IMG/VR virus record: IMGVR_UViG_3300023116_000165 | Coordinates: 1 to 33,802 of that record | Length of the DNA stretch: 33,802 nucleotides | Direction: 5' to 3' (one strand) | Origin: a virus | Shown here: positions 3,465 to 33,802 of the stretch, piece by piece | Layout: each line of letters starts with the position of its first letter | Numbering within the stretch: the stretch's first letter is position 1 | The notes under the pieces: model-generated | Databases searched by the model: none | Told to the model about the DNA's origin: nothing | Seen by the model: the letters and a program-made list of their open reading frames with translations, nothing else | Program-made: the position numbers and the translations under genes

Positions 3465-6221
3465 TTAGGTGTACCTCATGCCGTCGTCACCAGTTGACAG
3501 CTGATGTGCGCTGTCTGAGATGAAAGCAGCACCCCCACGCTGGCTTGTGATGGCGCTGGCGTAGTCATCAAAATCCATGGCGGTCCAGCTGCCCACAGTC
3601 AAGCTGACAGCGCTGCTCAGTGTGACTGTGTTGCCACTGATAGCGTCAATGGTTCTGGCCTCTCTGGTGGAATAGTCACCCTCATTGTGTATGACCACCC
3701 TGTCACCAGCTGAGAAGTAGTCAACGTCACTGCCACTCTCTGTGTACTCATTTGCAGCAAGCACAATGTCGCTGCCAGACTTGCTGACCACCTTGGCCGA
3801 TGGTGCGTATGGCATAAAGGCATCAGTCAATGCGCTGCTTTCAACCACCACAGTCAGGATGGCGCCGGGCTCATCACCGCTGTATATCTTCACGATATTC
3901 TCAACCACGCCATACCTTGTGACCAGACCTCTGCCACCATCTGGCGTGGGTATCTCTGGCACAGTCAGCTCAATGGTGTCACCGATGTTGGCCCACCATG
4001 CGCGCCGGTCTGCAGTCAGCCTGAGCACAACCTTGCCTCTGCCGTGGCGCTGCGCAAGCTGGCTGGCCCAGTTCTTGGTCAGGTCAAGCGCCTGCCCTGG
4101 GCCTATGGTGTAGCCTCTCAGATTCCACTCGATGACGTTTCTGTGGCCATACTCAGCCTCAGCGTCAGTGTTGAGGACAGAGACCTTGACGCTGTCTTTG
4201 CTCTCTTCGTTTGCAAAGTCCCAGACAGGGTACACCGTCACGCCTGTCACGATGTTTGATGTGCCCCGCTGATACGTGGCAGGGTCTGACCAGTGCATCT
4301 GTGTGGTATCCAAGCTCAACACGCTCTGTGATGCGATGGCTGGTTTTTGACGCCCCACGCCAATTGTATACTGCCCCTGTGAGTCAACGCGAGGAAACAT
4401 GAACCGCCCAACAGGGTTGAGCCAGTCCCTACACAGCTTTGACAGTTGCTCAGGCTTGCTCAGGAAATAGCTGACAGTCTGCTCAGTGGGCGTCATGTCA
4501 CTTGAGGCCTCAAGGAATGAGGCAGAGTCAAAGTGGCCAGGTGCCTGTGGCGTTCCTACGCCAACGCCAAAGAGGTCATAACCGCCATGATTGCCATCAC
4601 CAGTGCTCTGGGCCAGGTTGAGAATCGTTAGCAGGAATGAGTCATTGAGCACGCCAACACCAAAGCGCACGTCAGCACCGCCCTCACTGCCCTGGTCATC
4701 CTGAAAGCTGGTCCTGTGCACCTTGGCTGTGGTGCCCATCAGCCCACGTTGCACGCCATTCATCTGATACAGGCCAGACGCCACATCAGTTGCAATGCTA
4801 CTGATGGATTGGTAGCTGACAATCTCTGCCTCTTCGTCATCACCAATCACTGCAAAACCTGGCTCAATCGGAGCCATGGCTGTCATCAGGTCAGCGTCAT
4901 TGACGTATGTGAAAGGTATGGATGTGGCTGTTGCTGACACGTATGACGCTGAGGCATCTTGTGCAGCCACTGAGGCAAAGATGAGGAATGACCCATTTGT
5001 GACGCTGGTGCTAGTGCCCTTGAAGCCAAGCATGCTGCACACGCTGTCCTGCCCATCGTGGTTGATTTCAATGCTGTAGTTGATGGACGTATGCAGGCCA
5101 CTGTACTCATACCCACCGCCAGAGAATATGCGGTCAAGTCGTATCTCAAGGTTGCTGACTGTGGCCTGTATCACTTGGTTGACGTTCAAGAAAAACGCGC
5201 CAAAAAGCTGCTCCTCCGTGAGCACCTCTGTCACTGGTGGCACATCGGGCGTGCCTGTCCCTGTGAGTATATCAATGGCGTTAGGGCCAGACGCATTGAG
5301 CACCACAGCGCCAGCAGTATCACGCACAATAATGTGGAATTTGCGACTACTGCCACCCACAAGGAAAAATTTGCCCTGCTGAATCTCTGTATCGCTGGAC
5401 CCTGCAGCCCACTTTGCAAGTGGCTCAAGGCTAAGGTTGCCCTGCTTGAGCTCCGCTCCAACAGTGGTGCGAAGCAGGCTGTCAATGGCCTCAATCTCAA
5501 ACTCAATGCTTGACCAATCTGAGCCAGCCCTTGGCAACTCTCTGATGAATCCCCTGAAGCACTCAAAGCTGGCATCACCGTCAAAGGCATCGTCAACCGC
5601 ATACCCATCAGCAGTGACCCAATGGGCATATACCTGCACATACCTGCCGATGAAGTTGCGCGGATGGTCTGCCACCACTCGTGGCGCTGATGGCAGGTTG
5701 CTGTTGTGCCTGTATACGGTGTCACCATAGCCAACAGGGTCATACAGTGTGCGCGCTGTCACATTGAATGTGGTGGCCGTTTTGCTGGTGTAGGTCATCG
5801 TTTCCCTGCCCAGGTACAGCGTGCCACTGGATGCAACAAAGTCTGCAGTGCTGTCCACTGTCATGGTCCATGGGCCAGACCCTGTCTCATACGGAAAGTC
5901 ATCAGCCAGGTTGGCAAGCGCACCTGTCTGCTTGTCCCAGGCAAAGATGCCGCCATTGGTATACGCCCTGTCTTCAACCAGACGGATGAGCATGCTTGCT
6001 GGACTGGCGCCACCTGAGATGCGTGACAGGTTGCAGCCAATGTCCTGCACGTCTGACGCATCAAAGCTGCTAGGAACCAACGTATAGCTGCCACTGAGCC
6101 AGGGTGTGCCGTCCTGGGCAATGGGCACCTCACCACTCAACCAGATATATGGCAGCCCTTGGATCTTGACATAAAACCGCAAGCTCATGTCAGGATTGTT
6201 GACGTGCTCTTTGTATCCCAT
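3465..6221 (-). CDS. Large tail hub/tip protein
   Basis: At 918 residues this is the largest protein in the window. It lies in the siphovirus tail-tip position, after the tape measure and one minor tail protein. It is mostly beta with no membrane segment. Residues ~10-250 resemble a hub module with repeated short strands (MSLRFYVKIQGLPYIWLSGE near the start), followed by FIGRYVQVYAH and an IEFEIEAIDSLLRT stretch. The middle has LGFKGTSTSV and a segment typical of tail-associated proteins (EAEIVSYQSI), and the C-terminal part has a WASQLAQRHGRGKVVLRLT segment. The ATG overlaps the upstream stop by one base. The family is not identified with certainty; the function is inferred from length and gene order. 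No lysozyme or peptidase motif was seen. Confidence 0.7.
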   Translation of the reverse strand: MGYKEHVNNPDMSLRFYVKIQGLPYIWLSGEVPIAQDGTPWLSGSYTLVPSSFDASDVQDIGCNLSRISGGASPASMLIRLVEDRAYTNGGIFAWDKQTGALANLADDFPYETGSGPWTMTVDSTADFVASSGTLYLGRETMTYTSKTATTFNVTARTLYDPVGYGDTVYRHNSNLPSAPRVVADHPRNFIGRYVQVYAHWVTADGYAVDDAFDGDASFECFRGFIRELPRAGSDWSSIEFEIEAIDSLLRTTVGAELKQGNLSLEPLAKWAAGSSDTEIQQGKFFLVGGSSRKFHIIVRDTAGAVVLNASGPNAIDILTGTGTPDVPPVTEVLTEEQLFGAFFLNVNQVIQATVSNLEIRLDRIFSGGGYEYSGLHTSINYSIEINHDGQDSVCSMLGFKGTSTSVTNGSFLIFASVAAQDASASYVSATATSIPFTYVNDADLMTAMAPIEPGFAVIGDDEEAEIVSYQSISSIATDVASGLYQMNGVQRGLMGTTAKVHRTSFQDDQGSEGGADVRFGVGVLNDSFLLTILNLAQSTGDGNHGGYDLFGVGVGTPQAPGHFDSASFLEASSDMTPTEQTVSYFLSKPEQLSKLCRDWLNPVGRFMFPRVDSQGQYTIGVGRQKPAIASQSVLSLDTTQMHWSDPATYQRGTSNIVTGVTVYPVWDFANEESKDSVKVSVLNTDAEAEYGHRNVIEWNLRGYTIGPGQALDLTKNWASQLAQRHGRGKVVLRLTADRRAWWANIGDTIELTVPEIPTPDGGRGLVTRYGVVENIVKIYSGDEPGAILTVVVESSALTDAFMPYAPSAKVVSKSGSDIVLAANEYTESGSDVDYFSAGDRVVIHNEGDYSTREARTIDAISGNTVTLSSAVSLTVGSWTAMDFDDYASAITSQRGGAAFISDSAHQLSTGDDGMRYT

Positions 6222-17975: not shown

Positions 17976-19394
17976 CTACCTCTGAGCGTCTGGCCGCGCT
18001 CTGCCCTGCACCTTTTCTCGAAACGTCATGAACCTGTAATGGTAACCGATATAATACCGCAAGGCATCCACAGCATGAGATGACCAGGCCTCTTGATTGA
18101 CCTTGTTGCTCACTGACTCTCTGCCATCAATCATGCGCTTTTTGTAGCTGTATGACTGCAGGCTCCTGAATATGCCACGCCCCTTGTCCTTGGTAAGCGC
18201 TGGCGCAAGGAACAACCTGCGCTGGCCGCTTGCATCGCGAAACCTGTGCTTGACTGCCTCAATGCCATCACGCTTGAGCGCTTCTGTCATGTTGCGCTTG
18301 CTGACCCTGCCTGGAAAAAACCTTGGGGAGTACGCCAGGCGGGCTGCAGTGTGTGGCCTGCTGTCACAGTACACCCTGGCCACATCGCGTCTGCTCAGAT
18401 TCCAGCGCTGCTTGAGTCTCTGACAGACTGCATCTAAAAATTCCACATCTTGGCAGCCATCAATGTACAGCTCATCAAAGATGGTGTCAGTGCCAGCATC
18501 AAGGTCACGCTCCACATACAAGCAGTGATAGTGCCCACCCCAGTCAATGCAAAGCACTATGTCAGTGTTGCGCTTGCCACGTGGGCCGTTGAACACATAT
18601 CCCCAGTCGATTGACTTACGCCTGCAAAATTCACTGGCAAACACTGTGCCTGATGGTGGCTGTGGATCACCTTCCAGAAGCGCCATGGCCTCTGACTCTG
18701 ACATGTTGGATTTCAATTCTTCGTAGTAGCTGGCATCAATCCCTGGGTTGTCCTTAGTGCTGCCCTGGATGATGACATACCCATTCTCTGTGCCTTGCTC
18801 CTCAAACAGTGCGCTGATGCCCTCGCCTGCCACTGTTGGCGTGGATGTGACCAGGTAAAACAGGTGGGGGCTGCGCGCATCGCGCAATCGCTTGCGTCCC
18901 AGCTTGAATGCTTCTCTTGGGTTTTCGCTCTCCTCGCCCTCATCCAGCCAGACACCTGCCACATTCTGCCCTGCAAAGCGCCAGGCATCTGTCGCAATAA
19001 ACTTGATGGTGTCACCTGTCTTGAGTCGTATCTGCCTGGGGTGTGTTTTCTGTGGCTTGCCTTTGACAAGGCTGAATCCATTGCGCACGGCAATGTCATC
19101 CAGAATGGTCAGCAGTGACTGCCAAGCGCCTGCGTCAATCAGCTGGTATGTTGGGCTCATCGCCAGATAGGTCAACTCACCTGTTTTGCCTCTGGCCTGA
19201 TACATGGCGCGATTGTGCAGAATGCGCCTCAAAAACTCCCAGCTGCCTGCATATGACTTGCCTGAGCCAAGGCCCCCACGAAAGTACACGAATCGTGTGC
19301 CCTTTGCTGCCTCGGCGTGAAAGGCAGCCTGTGCCTTGCTTGGTCTGCTGGGCCTGCCGTCAACCTCTCCGTATGGCGGAAAAATGATATTCAC
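17976..19394 (-). CDS. terL: Terminase large subunit
   Basis: A 472-residue DNA-packaging motor and nuclease. The ATPase half has Walker A GGLGSGKS (residues 40-47, Lys46), Walker B VAGVWLDE (145-152, Asp151/Glu152) and a TSTP coupling motif at 183-186. The nuclease half has acidic residues in CIDWGG (Asp284), YCDSRP (Asp344) and AVDALRYY (Asp443), the RNase H-like metal site. It starts with GTG at 19394, whose GTGA overlaps the stop of the 46-residue gene upstream. It is followed after 12 bases by the portal gene. All key motifs are present. Confidence 0.93.
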   Translation of the reverse strand: MNIIFPPYGEVDGRPSRPSKAQAAFHAEAAKGTRFVYFRGGLGSGKSYAGSWEFLRRILHNRAMYQARGKTGELTYLAMSPTYQLIDAGAWQSLLTILDDIAVRNGFSLVKGKPQKTHPRQIRLKTGDTIKFIATDAWRFAGQNVAGVWLDEGEESENPREAFKLGRKRLRDARSPHLFYLVTSTPTVAGEGISALFEEQGTENGYVIIQGSTKDNPGIDASYYEELKSNMSESEAMALLEGDPQPPSGTVFASEFCRRKSIDWGYVFNGPRGKRNTDIVLCIDWGGHYHCLYVERDLDAGTDTIFDELYIDGCQDVEFLDAVCQRLKQRWNLSRRDVARVYCDSRPHTAARLAYSPRFFPGRVSKRNMTEALKRDGIEAVKHRFRDASGQRRLFLAPALTKDKGRGIFRSLQSYSYKKRMIDGRESVSNKVNQEAWSSHAVDALRYYIGYHYRFMTFREKVQGRARPDAQR

Positions 19395-22060: not shown

Positions 22061-22190
22061 ACCCCAACCACCACAAAGGCCAGAGCGCTGTGGCTGCTGC
22101 CAGGTACAGCCAAGGCATGCCTGTGGTTCTGTTGCTGCTGTATATCATGGCGCATGTGATGAGCGCCCCTGCTGTGTATATCTCAATCAT
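22041..22190 (-). CDS. Small membrane protein (49 residues)
   Basis: A 49-residue frame found by reading the gap between larger genes. It starts ATGATTGAG at 22190, where the start overlaps the upstream TGA (AGATGA), and ends TAA at 22041. The protein has two hydrophobic stretches, IYTAGALITCAMIY near the start and WLYLAAATALWPLWWLGFG near the end, separated by a short polar turn, so it looks like a two-span hairpin in the membrane. It may be an accessory host-membrane protein or a superinfection factor. No function is assigned. Confidence 0.6.
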   Translation of the reverse strand: MIEIYTAGALITCAMIYSSNRTTGMPWLYLAAATALWPLWWLGFGVDSY

Positions 22191-23260
22191 CTCACCACCG
22201 TTGTATTGCTTGTGATGGTCTCAGCCTCTATCGCTGCCCCTGCCAGTGCCCTGTCAGACTTACTCAGATGTTTTGTCATCTTGGCTGCTGACTTGCTGTC
22301 GATGCTGAGCGCTGACAGTGGCAAGTCAACGCCATACCTGGCCAGAACCTTTGCTGCCTTGTCTGCTGGCAGTTTGCGTGAGCGCCTCACGCTGGGCCGC
22401 TTCTGGCCCTCGCCATGCAATGCCTGTGTGCGCTGCATGCCTTGCAGCTCTTTGAGTCGCTGCTTCGTGGCCATAATAGTGTCAGCCAGCGCCTGCTCAT
22501 CGTCTGCCAGCTGCAGTACATGCGTGGGCTGCTGGATGGCGTCAGTGTATGCGCTGCAGCTGTGGCAGTAGTCGCACCATGCACAGAATGTGTTGAGCCT
22601 TGCAGGGTACTGCTGAGCGCTCTGCAGCTGCGCTGCCAGCGTCTGCACCCACTGCAGGCACTTCTCAGCAATCTCATCTGTCATATCGCACACAACCAGC
22701 TGATTATGGCGCAACAGGTCAAACCCTACCTGCACGCGCTCAATGCCCTTGTACATCTGCTTTGCAGCCATGCCGTACAACGCAAGCTGCATTGAGTCGT
22801 CAGGCACCATCCAGGCCTTGCTGCTCTTGTAGTCAATGACCCTGATGGTGTGCTCATCAATGAGGTCAATGCGGTCTATGATGCCTGTGACAGTCACACC
22901 AGCCAGTTGCATCGTAAATTTGCGCTCAGTGTCCAACACCTGACCGTGAGTAAACACGCCCATCCTGGCAGCCCATTGAGACAGCAAGCGCTTGCCCTCC
23001 TCATACAGTGTGCGGTCAGTGCAGTCAGACGCGCGCCAAGCCTTCTCATACTCATCAAGCACCAGGCTCTCATCAATCTCACCTGTGTGGTTGGCCTTGA
23101 CGAGTGCGTCAACAGTATCCTCAAGCGCTGTGTGGAGCGTGCTGCCAAACGTCAGGCTGTCAGGCCTGTTGGCTGCAGCTCGCTCAATGTATCTCAGGCT
23201 GTACTGCTTAGGGCAGCGCTCGAATGTATCCAGACGCGTAAATGATAGTCTTTTGCTCAT
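22187..23260 (-). CDS. Cas4/RecB-like PD-(D/E)XK nuclease with Fe-S cysteines
   Basis: A 357-residue exonuclease-type protein. The start ATG at 23260 has AGAGAGGC upstream. Motifs: Cys16 in FERCPKQYSLRY, His43 in LHTALE, Glu112, Asp129 in GIIDRIDLID, Asp143 and Lys145 in RVIDYKSSKAW, and Gln158 in QLALYG. A four-cysteine group, CAWCDYCHSC (226-235), lies near the end. Together with Cys16 this is the arrangement of an iron-sulphur cluster in Cas4/AddB-type nucleases. It lies just after the presumed origin, with replication genes upstream, so it probably trims DNA ends or processes replication intermediates. Confidence 0.8.
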   Translation of the reverse strand: MSKRLSFTRLDTFERCPKQYSLRYIERAAANRPDSLTFGSTLHTALEDTVDALVKANHTGEIDESLVLDEYEKAWRASDCTDRTLYEEGKRLLSQWAARMGVFTHGQVLDTERKFTMQLAGVTVTGIIDRIDLIDEHTIRVIDYKSSKAWMVPDDSMQLALYGMAAKQMYKGIERVQVGFDLLRHNQLVVCDMTDEIAEKCLQWVQTLAAQLQSAQQYPARLNTFCAWCDYCHSCSAYTDAIQQPTHVLQLADDEQALADTIMATKQRLKELQGMQRTQALHGEGQKRPSVRRSRKLPADKAAKVLARYGVDLPLSALSIDSKSAAKMTKHLSKSDRALAGAAIEAETITSNTTVVR

Positions 23261-23359
23261 GGTTTTGCCTCTCTGTGACGATGGCGCGCACATGTGTGTA
23301 GATAGAATTGCCTATCGTCACGCTGTAAGCGCCTGTGATTATATGGCCTTTTTGCCTGT

Positions 23360-23378
23360 GTTGTAGATGTTGTCACAT
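23360..23378. repeat. 19-base direct repeat, copy 1
   Basis: GTTGTAGATGTTGTCACAT at 23360-23378 recurs exactly at 23513-23531. The second copy is followed at once by TGACGTTACATAG, the other arm version, so it looks like a join of the two forms. Confidence 0.85.
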
Positions 23379-23463
23379 AGATCCAAATCTAATGCGCGCA
23401 CGTGCGCGCGTGTGCGCGCCTGCGCGCGTGTGTGAGATTCAGATCTATGTAACGTCATCTACA
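23362..23463. repeat. Inner inverted repeat, about 29-base arms
   Basis: Left arm 23362-23390 and right arm 23435-23463 match in 24 of 29 positions when one is reversed: TGTAGATG, then five variable bases, then ACATAGATC, then a close to AATCT end. The differences sit mainly in the five-base insert (TTGTC against ACGTT). The centre between them is the alternating tract at 23392-23434. Confidence 0.8.
23392..23434. other. Alternating purine-pyrimidine tract with 16-base palindrome
   Basis: From 23392 to 23419 the bases alternate strictly purine-pyrimidine, mostly GC with a few AT and GT steps. After one break the alternation resumes from 23421 to 23434. GCGCGCACGTGCGCGC at 23394-23409 is a perfect palindrome. 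Such tracts favour Z-DNA or cruciform under negative supercoiling. It sits in the middle of both inverted repeats. Confidence 0.75.
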
Positions 23464-23512
23464 CACTTTGTGTTTTCCTGTTGCACGTCAAGCACTTACA
23501 GCGTGACGATGC

Positions 23513-23543
23513 GTTGTAGATGTTGTCACATGACGTTACATAG
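23513..23543. repeat. 19-base direct repeat, copy 2, fused with ATGACGTTACATAG
   Basis: Bases 23513-23531 repeat 23360-23378 exactly. Bases 23530-23543 (ATGACGTTACATAG) are the reverse complement of 23445-23458 in the right inner arm. This composite copy ends just before the stop codon of the primase-helicase gene. Confidence 0.8.
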
Positions 23544-23544
23544 G

Positions 23545-25908
23545 TCACTGTGACTGCACCTGCTCAACCAGCCACTCAGTGCCCTTGCGCCCTCTGCCAG
23601 CCTTCTTGAGCCTCAAACCGCCCACAATGCGCCCCTCCCAGCTTCTGAAGATATAGCCCAGCGCTCTGGTGCTCAGCTTAGCTGTGAAATGCTCCAGGCT
23701 CTCACGCATGGCAAAGTCATGCTCACTGACGCAGGTGGTCACTGCTGAGTATGCGTCAGACGTGCTCACAGCCTGCGCAAACCACTTGGAGCGCCAGGAC
23801 TGCATAAACACACGCCAGGCCACCAGACGCTCATCACCGCTGTCTCTGAGCCTGTTTTGCGTGCTGGCCACATCCAGATCAGACACCCACAGAATTGGCT
23901 CACGCACCCAAGCTGACCAGTCGTAGAAGGTGCCCAGTGTCGGCTGCCTTGATGGTCTGCCTGATGCGAGATGTGCGCGCATCAGTGTCAGCACAGCGTG
24001 CACCAGTTGTGGCCTCATTGCAGCTGCATGACGGAGTATGTCAGGGTACTTGAACCGCTCACGCTGGTCAGGACGCTCTGTCTGTGGGTCCAGATAGCAG
24101 CAAATCACGCGCCTCAGCATGTCACCAGCAAGGCGCACATTGTTCCCTGTGGCCATGACCATCAATGTGTTGGGCGCACTAAACACCTGATTGCCACCAA
24201 GCAAGCGCTGCGACCAACGCTCAGATGTGATGAGCGCATCCAGCGTAGGACCACCCAGCGCCTGAGTGTGGCCTATGTTATCGAGAAGAAGAAAGCGCTG
24301 CCCAGCGCTCAGCAAGCCTGTCACCTGCTTGGCCAACTCCTCATTGGTTGCGTTGGTCGCTGTGGGCTGACTGCTTGAGCCTGTTGCGATGCACATGGCC
24401 AGCTTTGCAAGCAATGACTTGCCACTGCCTGGCGTGTTGCCATCGTACAAGTACAGTGGCGCTGTGCGCATGCTCTGACGCAATACTGCGGTCATAATGC
24501 CTGACACCGCTGCAGCAAGCTCCAACTCACCAGCAAAAGGAAAGTCAGTCAGAATCTCACGCAGCAGGTTGTATGCAGCGTGTGCATCATCCTTTGTGGG
24601 CGCTGCCTTGACTGATGGAAAGCGCACACCCTGTGGGTCATACAGTGTGCGTGTGCTCGCATCATAACCAGGCTCATCCTTGACCTCACCAGATGGCGTG
24701 ACCACTGGGCTGCCAGCCAGGCCCTCAAGGTATCGTATGGGGCCAAACTGCTGCAGCTCGTGCAACATGACCACCACATCCTGTGGCACGTTGCACCGCT
24801 TCTGCTCCACAGTGTCACCATTGCTCACCAGCTTGTACCACTGAATGACCTGGCCCAGCCTGTGGCGCAGCCTGCCGCGCTTCACATCCACAATGGCCCT
24901 GCCTGTGGGTGTATCGTGAACTGTGCAAAGCAGGCCATGCCTCTGGTACAGGTCATCAGCATGGTCAGCCAAAAACTGCACAGCCCTGTCAACCACTTCA
25001 GCATGGTTGTCACCTCTCATGACAATGCGTGGCGCTTGCCGGTATGGGTTGGCCTGTCCGCTGTCAAGCGCGCTGCCAATGGTGCTGCGTATCTGTGCGT
25101 TGCCATCAGTCCAGCCCTTGTCACGTTGCTGCATAGCTGCAGCCCAGAGTGCCTGCTCTGCGTCCTGGCGCGCTATCTCACCGCCTGCCACATATCGGCC
25201 TATGTGATACGCTGCCAGGTTGAGATGGTGGTTTCTGTTTGATGTGCGCGCAGCAAATGACAAGCACTCAGCCTCCAGCTTAGCCCTGCCAAAGTCAGTG
25301 GTACTGTCCGTATATACAGGTTCCACATCAAGATGGTCAGCGTTGCGCCTGCGCTTACGCTCGACCAGTTGAAGCAGCCAATCTGGTGCATCACAGACCT
25401 CATCAGCGCTCTCAATCTCCCACTCATAATATCTGCCACAGCTGTGCACAGATGGTGGTGCCACGATGAAGCCACCAGAGCCACGCACATCCAGGCCCGG
25501 CGCTATGCTGTCGGCGCTGTTTTTGACCTTGGTGCCCTCTGGACATCGAAAGTAATAATGTGAGCCACCACTCCCAGTGATGGCGTGCATGGTCGCTGGA
25601 AGCTCGCCATGCGTAGACTCTAAGTCTGACAGGCTCTCATGCCCTGGCTTGTCATCTTTGACATCAACGTCCAACACCCAGATACCTGAGCGCTCACCTG
25701 TGGCGATGCCAATGTTGGCATTTGGCCAGGCCTGCCACCATGTGCGGATCTGCTCTGGGTTGGTGGTGGCCTTTTCTTGCCATTTTGCGATCTTTGGCCG
25801 CTTGCCATCCACAGGGTCAACTGGGAAAACTCGCCAGCCCTGATGTCTGGCGTATGAAAGAGCGGCAGACAGGAGCCTTGTGGCCGCGTTTTGAGTGAAT
25901 TGAGACAC
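23545..25908 (-). CDS. Primase-helicase (prim-pol plus AAA+ helicase)
   Basis: A 787-residue replication protein. Residues ~15-180 are a prim-pol domain: WVLDVDVKDD with Asp80 and Asp82, SGGSHYYF with His117, then LDVRGSGGFIVAPPS, the catalytic set of the bifunctional primase-polymerase family. Residues ~480-620 are an AAA+ helicase: Walker A TPGSGKS (492-498, Lys497), Walker B RFLLLDN (538-544, Asp543) and a sensor MATGNN (585-590). It starts with GTG at 25908 behind AGGTG. It would make primers and unwind DNA at the fork. The repeat-rich non-coding region just after it is the likely target. Confidence 0.9.
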   Translation of the reverse strand: MSQFTQNAATRLLSAALSYARHQGWRVFPVDPVDGKRPKIAKWQEKATTNPEQIRTWWQAWPNANIGIATGERSGIWVLDVDVKDDKPGHESLSDLESTHGELPATMHAITGSGGSHYYFRCPEGTKVKNSADSIAPGLDVRGSGGFIVAPPSVHSCGRYYEWEIESADEVCDAPDWLLQLVERKRRRNADHLDVEPVYTDSTTDFGRAKLEAECLSFAARTSNRNHHLNLAAYHIGRYVAGGEIARQDAEQALWAAAMQQRDKGWTDGNAQIRSTIGSALDSGQANPYRQAPRIVMRGDNHAEVVDRAVQFLADHADDLYQRHGLLCTVHDTPTGRAIVDVKRGRLRHRLGQVIQWYKLVSNGDTVEQKRCNVPQDVVVMLHELQQFGPIRYLEGLAGSPVVTPSGEVKDEPGYDASTRTLYDPQGVRFPSVKAAPTKDDAHAAYNLLREILTDFPFAGELELAAAVSGIMTAVLRQSMRTAPLYLYDGNTPGSGKSLLAKLAMCIATGSSSQPTATNATNEELAKQVTGLLSAGQRFLLLDNIGHTQALGGPTLDALITSERWSQRLLGGNQVFSAPNTLMVMATGNNVRLAGDMLRRVICCYLDPQTERPDQRERFKYPDILRHAAAMRPQLVHAVLTLMRAHLASGRPSRQPTLGTFYDWSAWVREPILWVSDLDVASTQNRLRDSGDERLVAWRVFMQSWRSKWFAQAVSTSDAYSAVTTCVSEHDFAMRESLEHFTAKLSTRALGYIFRSWEGRIVGGLRLKKAGRGRKGTEWLVEQVQSQ

Positions 25909-26456: not shown

Positions 26457-26846
26457 CTAATCATCCTCCTTGCTATCACGCCAGTCAGTGCCAGCTGCCC
26501 ACATGGCAAACCGCACACACTTGGTCATGTCCTCTTTGAAATTGCCCTTCTTGCCTGCTCTCCAGGCATACTTGATGACATTGCCTCTGCAGTATTGCTT
26601 GAAACCTTCCTCACCCAGTGTGGTGCGAATCGCATCAATGCACTCAATTGTGGTCTCAGTGTAGTGCTGTGGCTTGTCGGTGACCTCAGCTGCTGCACAC
26701 AGCTTGCAATCATCGCCAATGTCATCATTGTCTCTTGGGTCTATCCAGATGCCGCACAGAGCCTCAACAGTGTACAGGTATCTGCCGTCATGCAGGCTCA
26801 TACGCTGCTTCTGCTCTCTGCCTGTCAGCTTGTGTATTATTCGCAT
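26457..26846 (-). CDS. DUF3310 protein
   Basis: A 129-residue protein. The start is the ATG at 26846 (MRIIHKLTGRE), with GGGAG six bases upstream; a longer reading beginning at 26861 overlaps the gene before it. Residues 58-62 KPQHY and 88-101 GNVIKYAWRAGKKG, then a DMTKC stretch, are the marks of DUF3310, often called a nucleotide-kinase-like phage protein. Its reaction is not certain. It lies between the resolvase and SSB genes, in the DNA-metabolism block. Confidence 0.85.
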   Translation of the reverse strand: MRIIHKLTGREQKQRMSLHDGRYLYTVEALCGIWIDPRDNDDIGDDCKLCAAAEVTDKPQHYTETTIECIDAIRTTLGEEGFKQYCRGNVIKYAWRAGKKGNFKEDMTKCVRFAMWAAGTDWRDSKEDD

Positions 26847-27175
26847 TTCAACTCCCACCACTCCTGTAATATGTCGAGCAGGTCATCCAGCTGCATCACT
26901 GCAAATGGCTGCTTTCTGTCCTCTTTGATGATGGCCATGGGATAGTGCCCCGCTGGGCAGTGCTCCACAGCTGTGTTGAGCGCTGTCCTGACTGGTGGTT
27001 TCTTGCCCACCTTGCACTCAATCGCAAATGGTCCAGCAGTCACATCAGGGCACTCTGCAGCGCCACCGCGTGTCTGCATTCCGCGCTTAGCATCGCAGCC
27101 CTTGAGCACTGCGTTGAACTCGCGTGCAACCTCGCGCTCAAAGCGCGCGCCTTTGTCTCTTTGCATTTTGCCCAT
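26837..27175 (-). CDS. PD-(D/E)XK nuclease, Holliday-junction-resolvase-like
   Basis: A 112-residue nuclease starting at ATG 27175 (MGKMQRDKGARFEREVARE). The helix FEREVAREF, then RGGAAECPDV with the first acidic residue, and PFAIECKVGKK with the E-x-K pair form the minimal PD-(D/E)XK core. Size and order match Hjc-like resolvases or small archaeal-type nucleases found in phages. It could resolve branched DNA before packaging. It overlaps the DUF3310 gene by 10 bases. It follows the foreign-codon island but its own codons are like the rest of the genome. Confidence 0.75.
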   Translation of the reverse strand: MGKMQRDKGARFEREVAREFNAVLKGCDAKRGMQTRGGAAECPDVTAGPFAIECKVGKKPPVRTALNTAVEHCPAGHYPMAIIKEDRKQPFAVMQLDDLLDILQEWWELKCE

Positions 27176-27177
27176 GG

Positions 27178-27465
27178 TTAGAACGTCCCGCTCTCGGCAC
27201 ACGCACAATCGGCAGCAGCCAATAATGCCTCCGCCAAATGTCTAGCTTGGTCTACATCAAGATTAGCCATTGCAGAGACTCCCACTAGACACTCACCGTT
27301 ATGTGTTTTCCAGACTTGCACGCTCGCCCTTCCACCACCATCCAAGCCTGATTGTCTCCAGACGCCAAAATCCCAAGAAGGCGAACCTTTGGAAAACACA
27401 CCACCCCCAATAGCCACCGAATGCTTAGGAGGCCACTCTGATTGATACCTTAAGTCACTCTTCAT
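27178..27465 (-). CDS. Unknown protein of the foreign-codon island (95 residues)
   Basis: A 95-residue protein, probably soluble. It opens MKSDLRYQSEWPPKHSVAIG, has a beta-like middle (WDFGVWRQSG, ASVQVWKTHNGECLVGVSAM) and ends in a helix (DQARHLAEALLAAADCACAE). Codons such as GGA, AGA and TCT are far commoner than in the neighbouring genes. It overlaps the 86-residue gene by 11 bases. No family was recognised; it may be cargo acquired from another source, for example an anti-defence or host-takeover protein, but this is only a guess. Confidence 0.65.
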   Translation of the reverse strand: MKSDLRYQSEWPPKHSVAIGGGVFSKGSPSWDFGVWRQSGLDGGGRASVQVWKTHNGECLVGVSAMANLDVDQARHLAEALLAAADCACAESGTF

Positions 27466-29211: not shown

Positions 29212-29297
29212 GGTGAGAATTGTTTTGACTGCAGTGGTAAGGTGCTTCACTTATGTTCTCCTGTCTTCAGGGTTGTGTCAATGGTATAATATGAGGC
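29212..29297. promoter_or_regulatory. Divergent control region between the two regulators
   Basis: The only non-coding gap between oppositely directed genes. On the plus strand TATAAT at 29285-29290 lies 7 bases before the ATG of the small HTH protein. On the minus strand a perfect TTGACA lies at 29281-29276, with a weaker -10 (CATAAG or AACATA) near 29256-29261. The two promoters therefore overlap. CCTG..CAGG at 29260-29271 and AGTG..CACT around 29234-29252 are short dyads that could be operators. Confidence 0.65.
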
Positions 29298-33628: not shown

Positions 33629-33802
33629 AGCACTGCACCTCGTGGGTCACTGTAGTACTGCTCACAGATGACGTTGATGGTGGCCCCGCTGATGGCGCTG
33701 ATGCGCGCTCGCAACCGCAAGTGTGGGCCAGACACCTCACGCATCTCATTGCTGCCAGCTGTCATGCTCAGTGACTCCAGTTCATCCCATGTGCTGCCAT
33801 CG
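33625..33802 (-). CDS. Small tail-tip/adhesin-region protein, 3' part (crosses the genome join)
   Basis: The remainder of the 108-residue protein that begins at 276. Bases 33677-33802 repeat the window's start; the unique part (33625-33676) encodes the end, NVICEQYYSDPRGAVL, then TGA. This stop overlaps the next gene's GTG. The continuous frame across the repeat shows that the sequence is circular. Confidence 0.75.
   Translation of the reverse strand, partial: DGSTWDELESLSMTAGSNEMREVSGPHLRLRARISAISGATINVICEQYYSDPRGAVL
33677..33802. repeat. Terminal direct repeat, right copy
   Basis: Exact copy of bases 2-127, see that entry. It should be removed once when the circle is closed. Confidence 0.95.

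Follow-up and report, generated by a model that had tools for sequence, protein, structure and literature searches.

A non-coding gap of 284 bp with nested inverted repeats, located directly 3′ of a prim-pol/helicase gene, raises the question of whether it is the origin of replication of the phage that carries it. The gap (positions 23261–23544) belongs to the virus record IMGVR_UViG_3300023116_000165, which was analysed over its whole length of 33,802 nucleotides and is called the window here. Positions 2–127 of the window are identical to 33677–33802, and these 126-bp identical ends make it most likely that the record covers the whole genome, about 33.7 kb long and probably circularly closed or permuted. 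The identified genes are on the minus strand, and no tRNA genes were found. An earlier remark that the genes leave almost no space between them is largely correct, with the reservation that some smaller gaps exist. DNA similarity to the window was not detected among phage records. The terminase large subunit gave no match in a tblastn search against 50,697 phage records (E 1e-5), which marks the phage as one of a poorly sampled lineage.

The gap extends from the stop of the prim-pol/helicase gene (23545–25908, minus strand, 787 residues) to the start of a gene for a Cas4/RecB-like PD-(D/E)XK exonuclease (22187–23260, minus strand; PF12705, E 1e-30; phrog_69). Its start at 23261 is supported by the relative L003 described below: the other possible start codon, an upstream ATG at 23291–23293, has no in-frame counterpart there, and L003 carries a 1-bp insertion in between. 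The sequence-only reading had placed the gap beside a primase-helicase gene, and a match to the archaeo-eukaryotic prim-pol domain (PF09250, E 2e-49) in the flanking gene, together with matches to phrog_29234 and to DNA polymerase/primase PHROGs, bears this out. The product is the candidate initiator. Its helicase half has P-loop ATPase-like motifs and matches to phage primase/helicase PHROGs, with no Pfam SF3 match and a poor structure model. At the C-terminus, the order helix-helix-helix-strand-strand appears in a low-confidence model (pLDDT 59) that has no significant match in the PDB; a sequence search of the PDB gave none either, and a C-terminal winged helix is only hinted at by the model. 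A replication module surrounds this gene, comprising the exonuclease, a RusA-like Holliday junction resolvase (26837–27208, minus strand; phrog_244, E 2e-17) and a nucleotide-kinase-like protein.

The symmetry of the gap has two levels. The outer arms, 23314–23329 and 23495–23510, are exact over 16 of 16 bases, and the inner arms, 23362–23390 (plus) and 23435–23463 (minus), match at 24 of 29, both as originally described; the two pairs are centred at 23412 and 23412.5, so that the proposed common centre near 23412 also stands. The outer arms can be extended to 23314–23335 (plus) and 23489–23510 (minus) with 20 of 22 positions paired, and the concentric arms span about 200 bp. Furthermore, the gap contains four features that the sequence-only reading had missed, namely two short repeats, a purine-pyrimidine run and a promoter-like site. 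TGTAGATGNNGTNACAT occurs in three exact copies, starting at 23362 (plus), 23447 (minus) and 23515 (plus), and hence in both orientations, with 0.29 expected even when up to two mismatches are allowed. These copies lie in iteron-like repeats: TGTAGATGTTGTCACATAG at 23362–23380 (plus), the inverted TGTAGATGACGTTACATAG at 23445–23463 (minus) and the compound TGTAGATGTTGTCACATGACGTTACATAG at 23515–23543 (plus), which is unchanged in L003. The third copy looks like a compound of both inner-arm versions. GTGACGATR is also present in three copies and both orientations in the gap, and nowhere else in the genome; this second short repeat, GTGACGAT, lies at 23275–23282 (plus), with further copies at 23314–23321 (minus), where the left outer arm holds it inverted, and at 23503–23510 (plus). 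TGTAGATGNNGTNACAT and GTGACGATR are candidate initiator-binding repeats.

The centre of the structure is a GC-rich tract of alternating purines and pyrimidines at 23392–23419, the longest such run in the genome. The AT content is 20% in the centre, and no 30-bp stretch of the gap exceeds 63%; the AT-rich unwinding region expected of a P4-like iteron origin was not found in the gap.

Is this anatomy more than chance would give? Compared with dinucleotide shuffles, the single-strand folding of the gap has z-scores of -5.5 as DNA, -6.1 as plus-strand RNA and -10.8 as minus-strand RNA, and the gap is the best fold among 240 windows taken genome-wide on both strands. It also ranks at the top of 1117 genome windows for repeated and inverted 8-mers, and does so with the GC tract masked. 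Cumulative GC skew makes a one-way run with no turn; since the main genes are all on one strand and the skew is monotone, it is uninformative about the origin.

The stronger folding of the sense strand would be expected if the arms acted in the minus-strand transcript, as an element for processing, stability or attenuation of an mRNA between two genes of an operon. Five of the six transition-type arm mismatches in the window are, in addition, G-U on that strand. This lean of 5 versus 1 is weak, however, and in the phages examined the arms are mostly exact and the wobbles divide 4 to 2 between sense and antisense. With roughly as many antisense as sense wobble mismatches in these phages, selection at the RNA level is not favoured, and the idea of strand-specific RNA selection was dropped as unsupported. 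Moreover, Rfam gave no match, no U-run follows the full stem, and the terminator-like calls in the gap concern a short central hairpin only. A role as mRNA structure is therefore unlikely. In a transcript, an alternative to the hairpin could form between the third iteron copy (23515–23543) and the inner 5′ arm.

Alternatively, the inverted repeats could be repressor or activator sites in an operator/promoter region for the exonuclease operon. A promoter-like site, TCTACA-18-TATAAT (23338–23367, minus strand), has its first hexamer within iteron 1 and an outer arm just past its second hexamer, and proteins with HTH motifs are encoded in the window. Such sites are, however, no more frequent in the gap region than in its shuffles, concentric arms of this extent would be unusual for an operator, and in other phages, too, such repeats turn up 3′ of prim-pol genes regardless of which gene comes next (see below). 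An operator as the main function is improbable; alongside an origin role, binding over the promoter-like site may regulate the exonuclease gene.

The origin reading would have been refuted by a related genome that keeps the genes and lacks the repeats. Scans of viral contigs, with five proteins and one alignment as queries, recovered only IMGVR_UViG_3300034375_008912 (L003), the sole close relative found, and the distant L004, and a scan of genome contigs for relatives recovered none. L003, the one close relative on which this could be judged, has retained the gap together with its repeats and their pairing. The gap differs from that of the window at 13 of 284 positions (4.6%) plus one insertion; the flanking genes have synonymous divergences of 0.28 (prim-pol/helicase) and 0.16 (exonuclease). 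Three substitutions fall in the 102 arm positions and no pair is broken by them. Two of the three, 23317 G>T and 23507 C>A, form a compensatory pair that leaves the outer arms exact, and the third, at 23441 in the right inner arm, adds one pair. When the same substitutions were placed at random, as many Watson-Crick pairs were kept in 0.6% of trials (P = 0.006), and a compensatory pair arose in 4.4%. Copying from arm to arm during replication could also yield a matched change, so the compensatory pair supports constraint on the structure and does not prove it. A degenerate pattern of the iteron matched 24 other viral contigs once each, and these single matches were read as chance; only L003 has two copies. 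L003 also carries a segment of about 630 bp (L003 1655–2287) that is missing from the window, where it would fall at 29249–29253.

There are more distant cases. In L004, whose helicase is 32% identical, outer arms GGGTTTATAGGGTTTATA and TATAAGCCCTATAAACCC (17 of 18 paired) enclose inner arms directly 3′ of the gene, and these nested arms have no sequence in common with those of the window. L004 is the most telling single case for a shared layout. A survey covered 28 phages that carry a prim-pol gene or a related helicase gene, the window and L003 being excluded. In each, the stretch from -6 to +4 kb around the gene end was scanned for the 300-bp window with the most repeated 8-mers. For all repeats, 10 of the 28 phages have this window 0–400 bp 3′ of the gene, and for inverted ones 12 do, compared with 1.7 expected; the windows elsewhere that enter the comparison are mostly coding rather than 3′ gaps of other genes. 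The binomial probabilities, 3e-6 for all repeats and 3e-8 for inverted repeats, overstate the evidence because some of the phages are interrelated, and the statistic was devised after several gaps had been read. Among six loci added after that (L057–L062), three rank first for inverted repeats, only one of them strongly. An earlier statistic, fold strength, put the 3′ region at rank 1 in 7 of 22 other phages. About half of the 28 sampled phages are without the pattern, including the large RpAliso and phiAsp2. In vir555 (L038), the densest repeats, seven copies of CAGTTGAA at about 5657–5957, are inside the annotated primase gene and not 3′ of it.

The recurrence beside prim-pol genes across phages also bears on a third possibility, that the gap is a packaging site, a recombination site or another structural DNA element unconnected with the initiation of replication. 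The window does encode a RusA-like resolvase, and palindromes can act as recombination hotspots. Against this, the association is with prim-pol genes, the terminase large subunit gene (17976–19394, minus strand) is about 4 kb away from the gap, and no integrase was identified among the window proteins searched. Such a function is very improbable.

The interpretation as an origin, by contrast, agrees in position and anatomy with known or proposed origins. Replication of the Sulfolobus plasmid pRN1 depends on a 100-nt stem-loop situated 3′ of its prim-pol/helicase gene, orf904 (PMC4234260, PMC3869888), and like the gap, the pRN-family element is a large stem-loop directly 3′ of such a gene. In this family, the integrity of the stem is needed for replication and the fold is kept while the sequence varies (PMC4234260, PMC3869888); the gap shows structure kept amid sequence change in one compensatory pair in L003 and in the same layout in L004, on few sequences. 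The two differ in that the pRN1 origin, on an archaeal plasmid, is one stem-loop of about 100 nt described without iterons, whereas the window has two concentric levels over about twice that length, with short repeats. The pRN1 replication protein has a known C-terminal winged helix, and specific binding by it was not found (PMC4234260). Berkner et al. (2014) proposed, with no experiment, a stem-loop 3′ of the prim-pol/helicase gene as the origin of phage BIP-1 (PMC4234260). In BPP-1, which is nearly identical to BIP-1, 48-nt arms at 83% lie 3′ of this gene and contain repeated GCCTCGTTT units in both orientations. BIP-1/BPP-1 and the gap thus have in common the position and the repeats in both orientations, and differ in sequence and in the single level of the BIP-1/BPP-1 arms.

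For Streptococcus phage Sfi21, a feature labelled “origin of replication, 302 bp non-coding region” is annotated in the record immediately 3′ of the primase gene, and this region contains nested inverted repeats (55 nt at 75%). A later paper, PMC6356513, refers to it as an independent origin that infection activates; Sfi21 is one phage of similar layout whose origin is experimentally supported. The Sfi21 region shares with the gap the position and the nested inverted repeats and shares no sequence; the Sfi21 centre is AT-rich, and, unlike in the window, prim-pol and helicase are encoded separately. Phage P4 is a looser parallel: its multifunctional primase-helicase, the alpha protein, binds the repeats of ori/crr via a winged helix (PMC4234260), the P4 primase is Toprim-type, and its origin has iterons and no large stem-loop.

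With the repeats kept in L003 and with these likenesses to pRN1, BIP-1/BPP-1 and Sfi21, the proposal of an origin is strengthened, and the gap at 23261–23544 is, judging from its sequence, probably the initiator-binding replication origin of this phage. The prim-pol/helicase would bind the inverted repeats, probably via a C-terminal DNA-binding domain, and their mirror arrangement would load two helicase rings in opposite orientations, or a structure stabilised by the protein. The helicase would then melt the DNA and the prim-pol domain would lay the first primers, after which replication proteins of the host or the phage would take over. The GC-rich, partly alternating centre argues against central melting and easy cruciform extrusion; opening may instead occur in the flanks between the inner and outer arms.

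For this uncultivated phage, the gap is a testable origin. Of greater interest as a lead is how widely inverted repeats may occur 3′ of prim-pol genes: inverted short repeats in this position, often as nested palindromes, may be a general, sequence-independent origin design in many unrelated phages and archaeal plasmids, a proposal towards which we remain slightly more doubtful than confident. The 2014 proposal, made for the pRN plasmids and one phage group, is widened here by two criteria, the position and the inverted short repeats, and the general design, if true, would unite the “stem-loop” type of pRN1 with the “iteron” type. In that case, origins of prim-pol phages would be readable from sequence alone, and the pairs of initiator and site would offer a natural series in which to follow changes in recognition.
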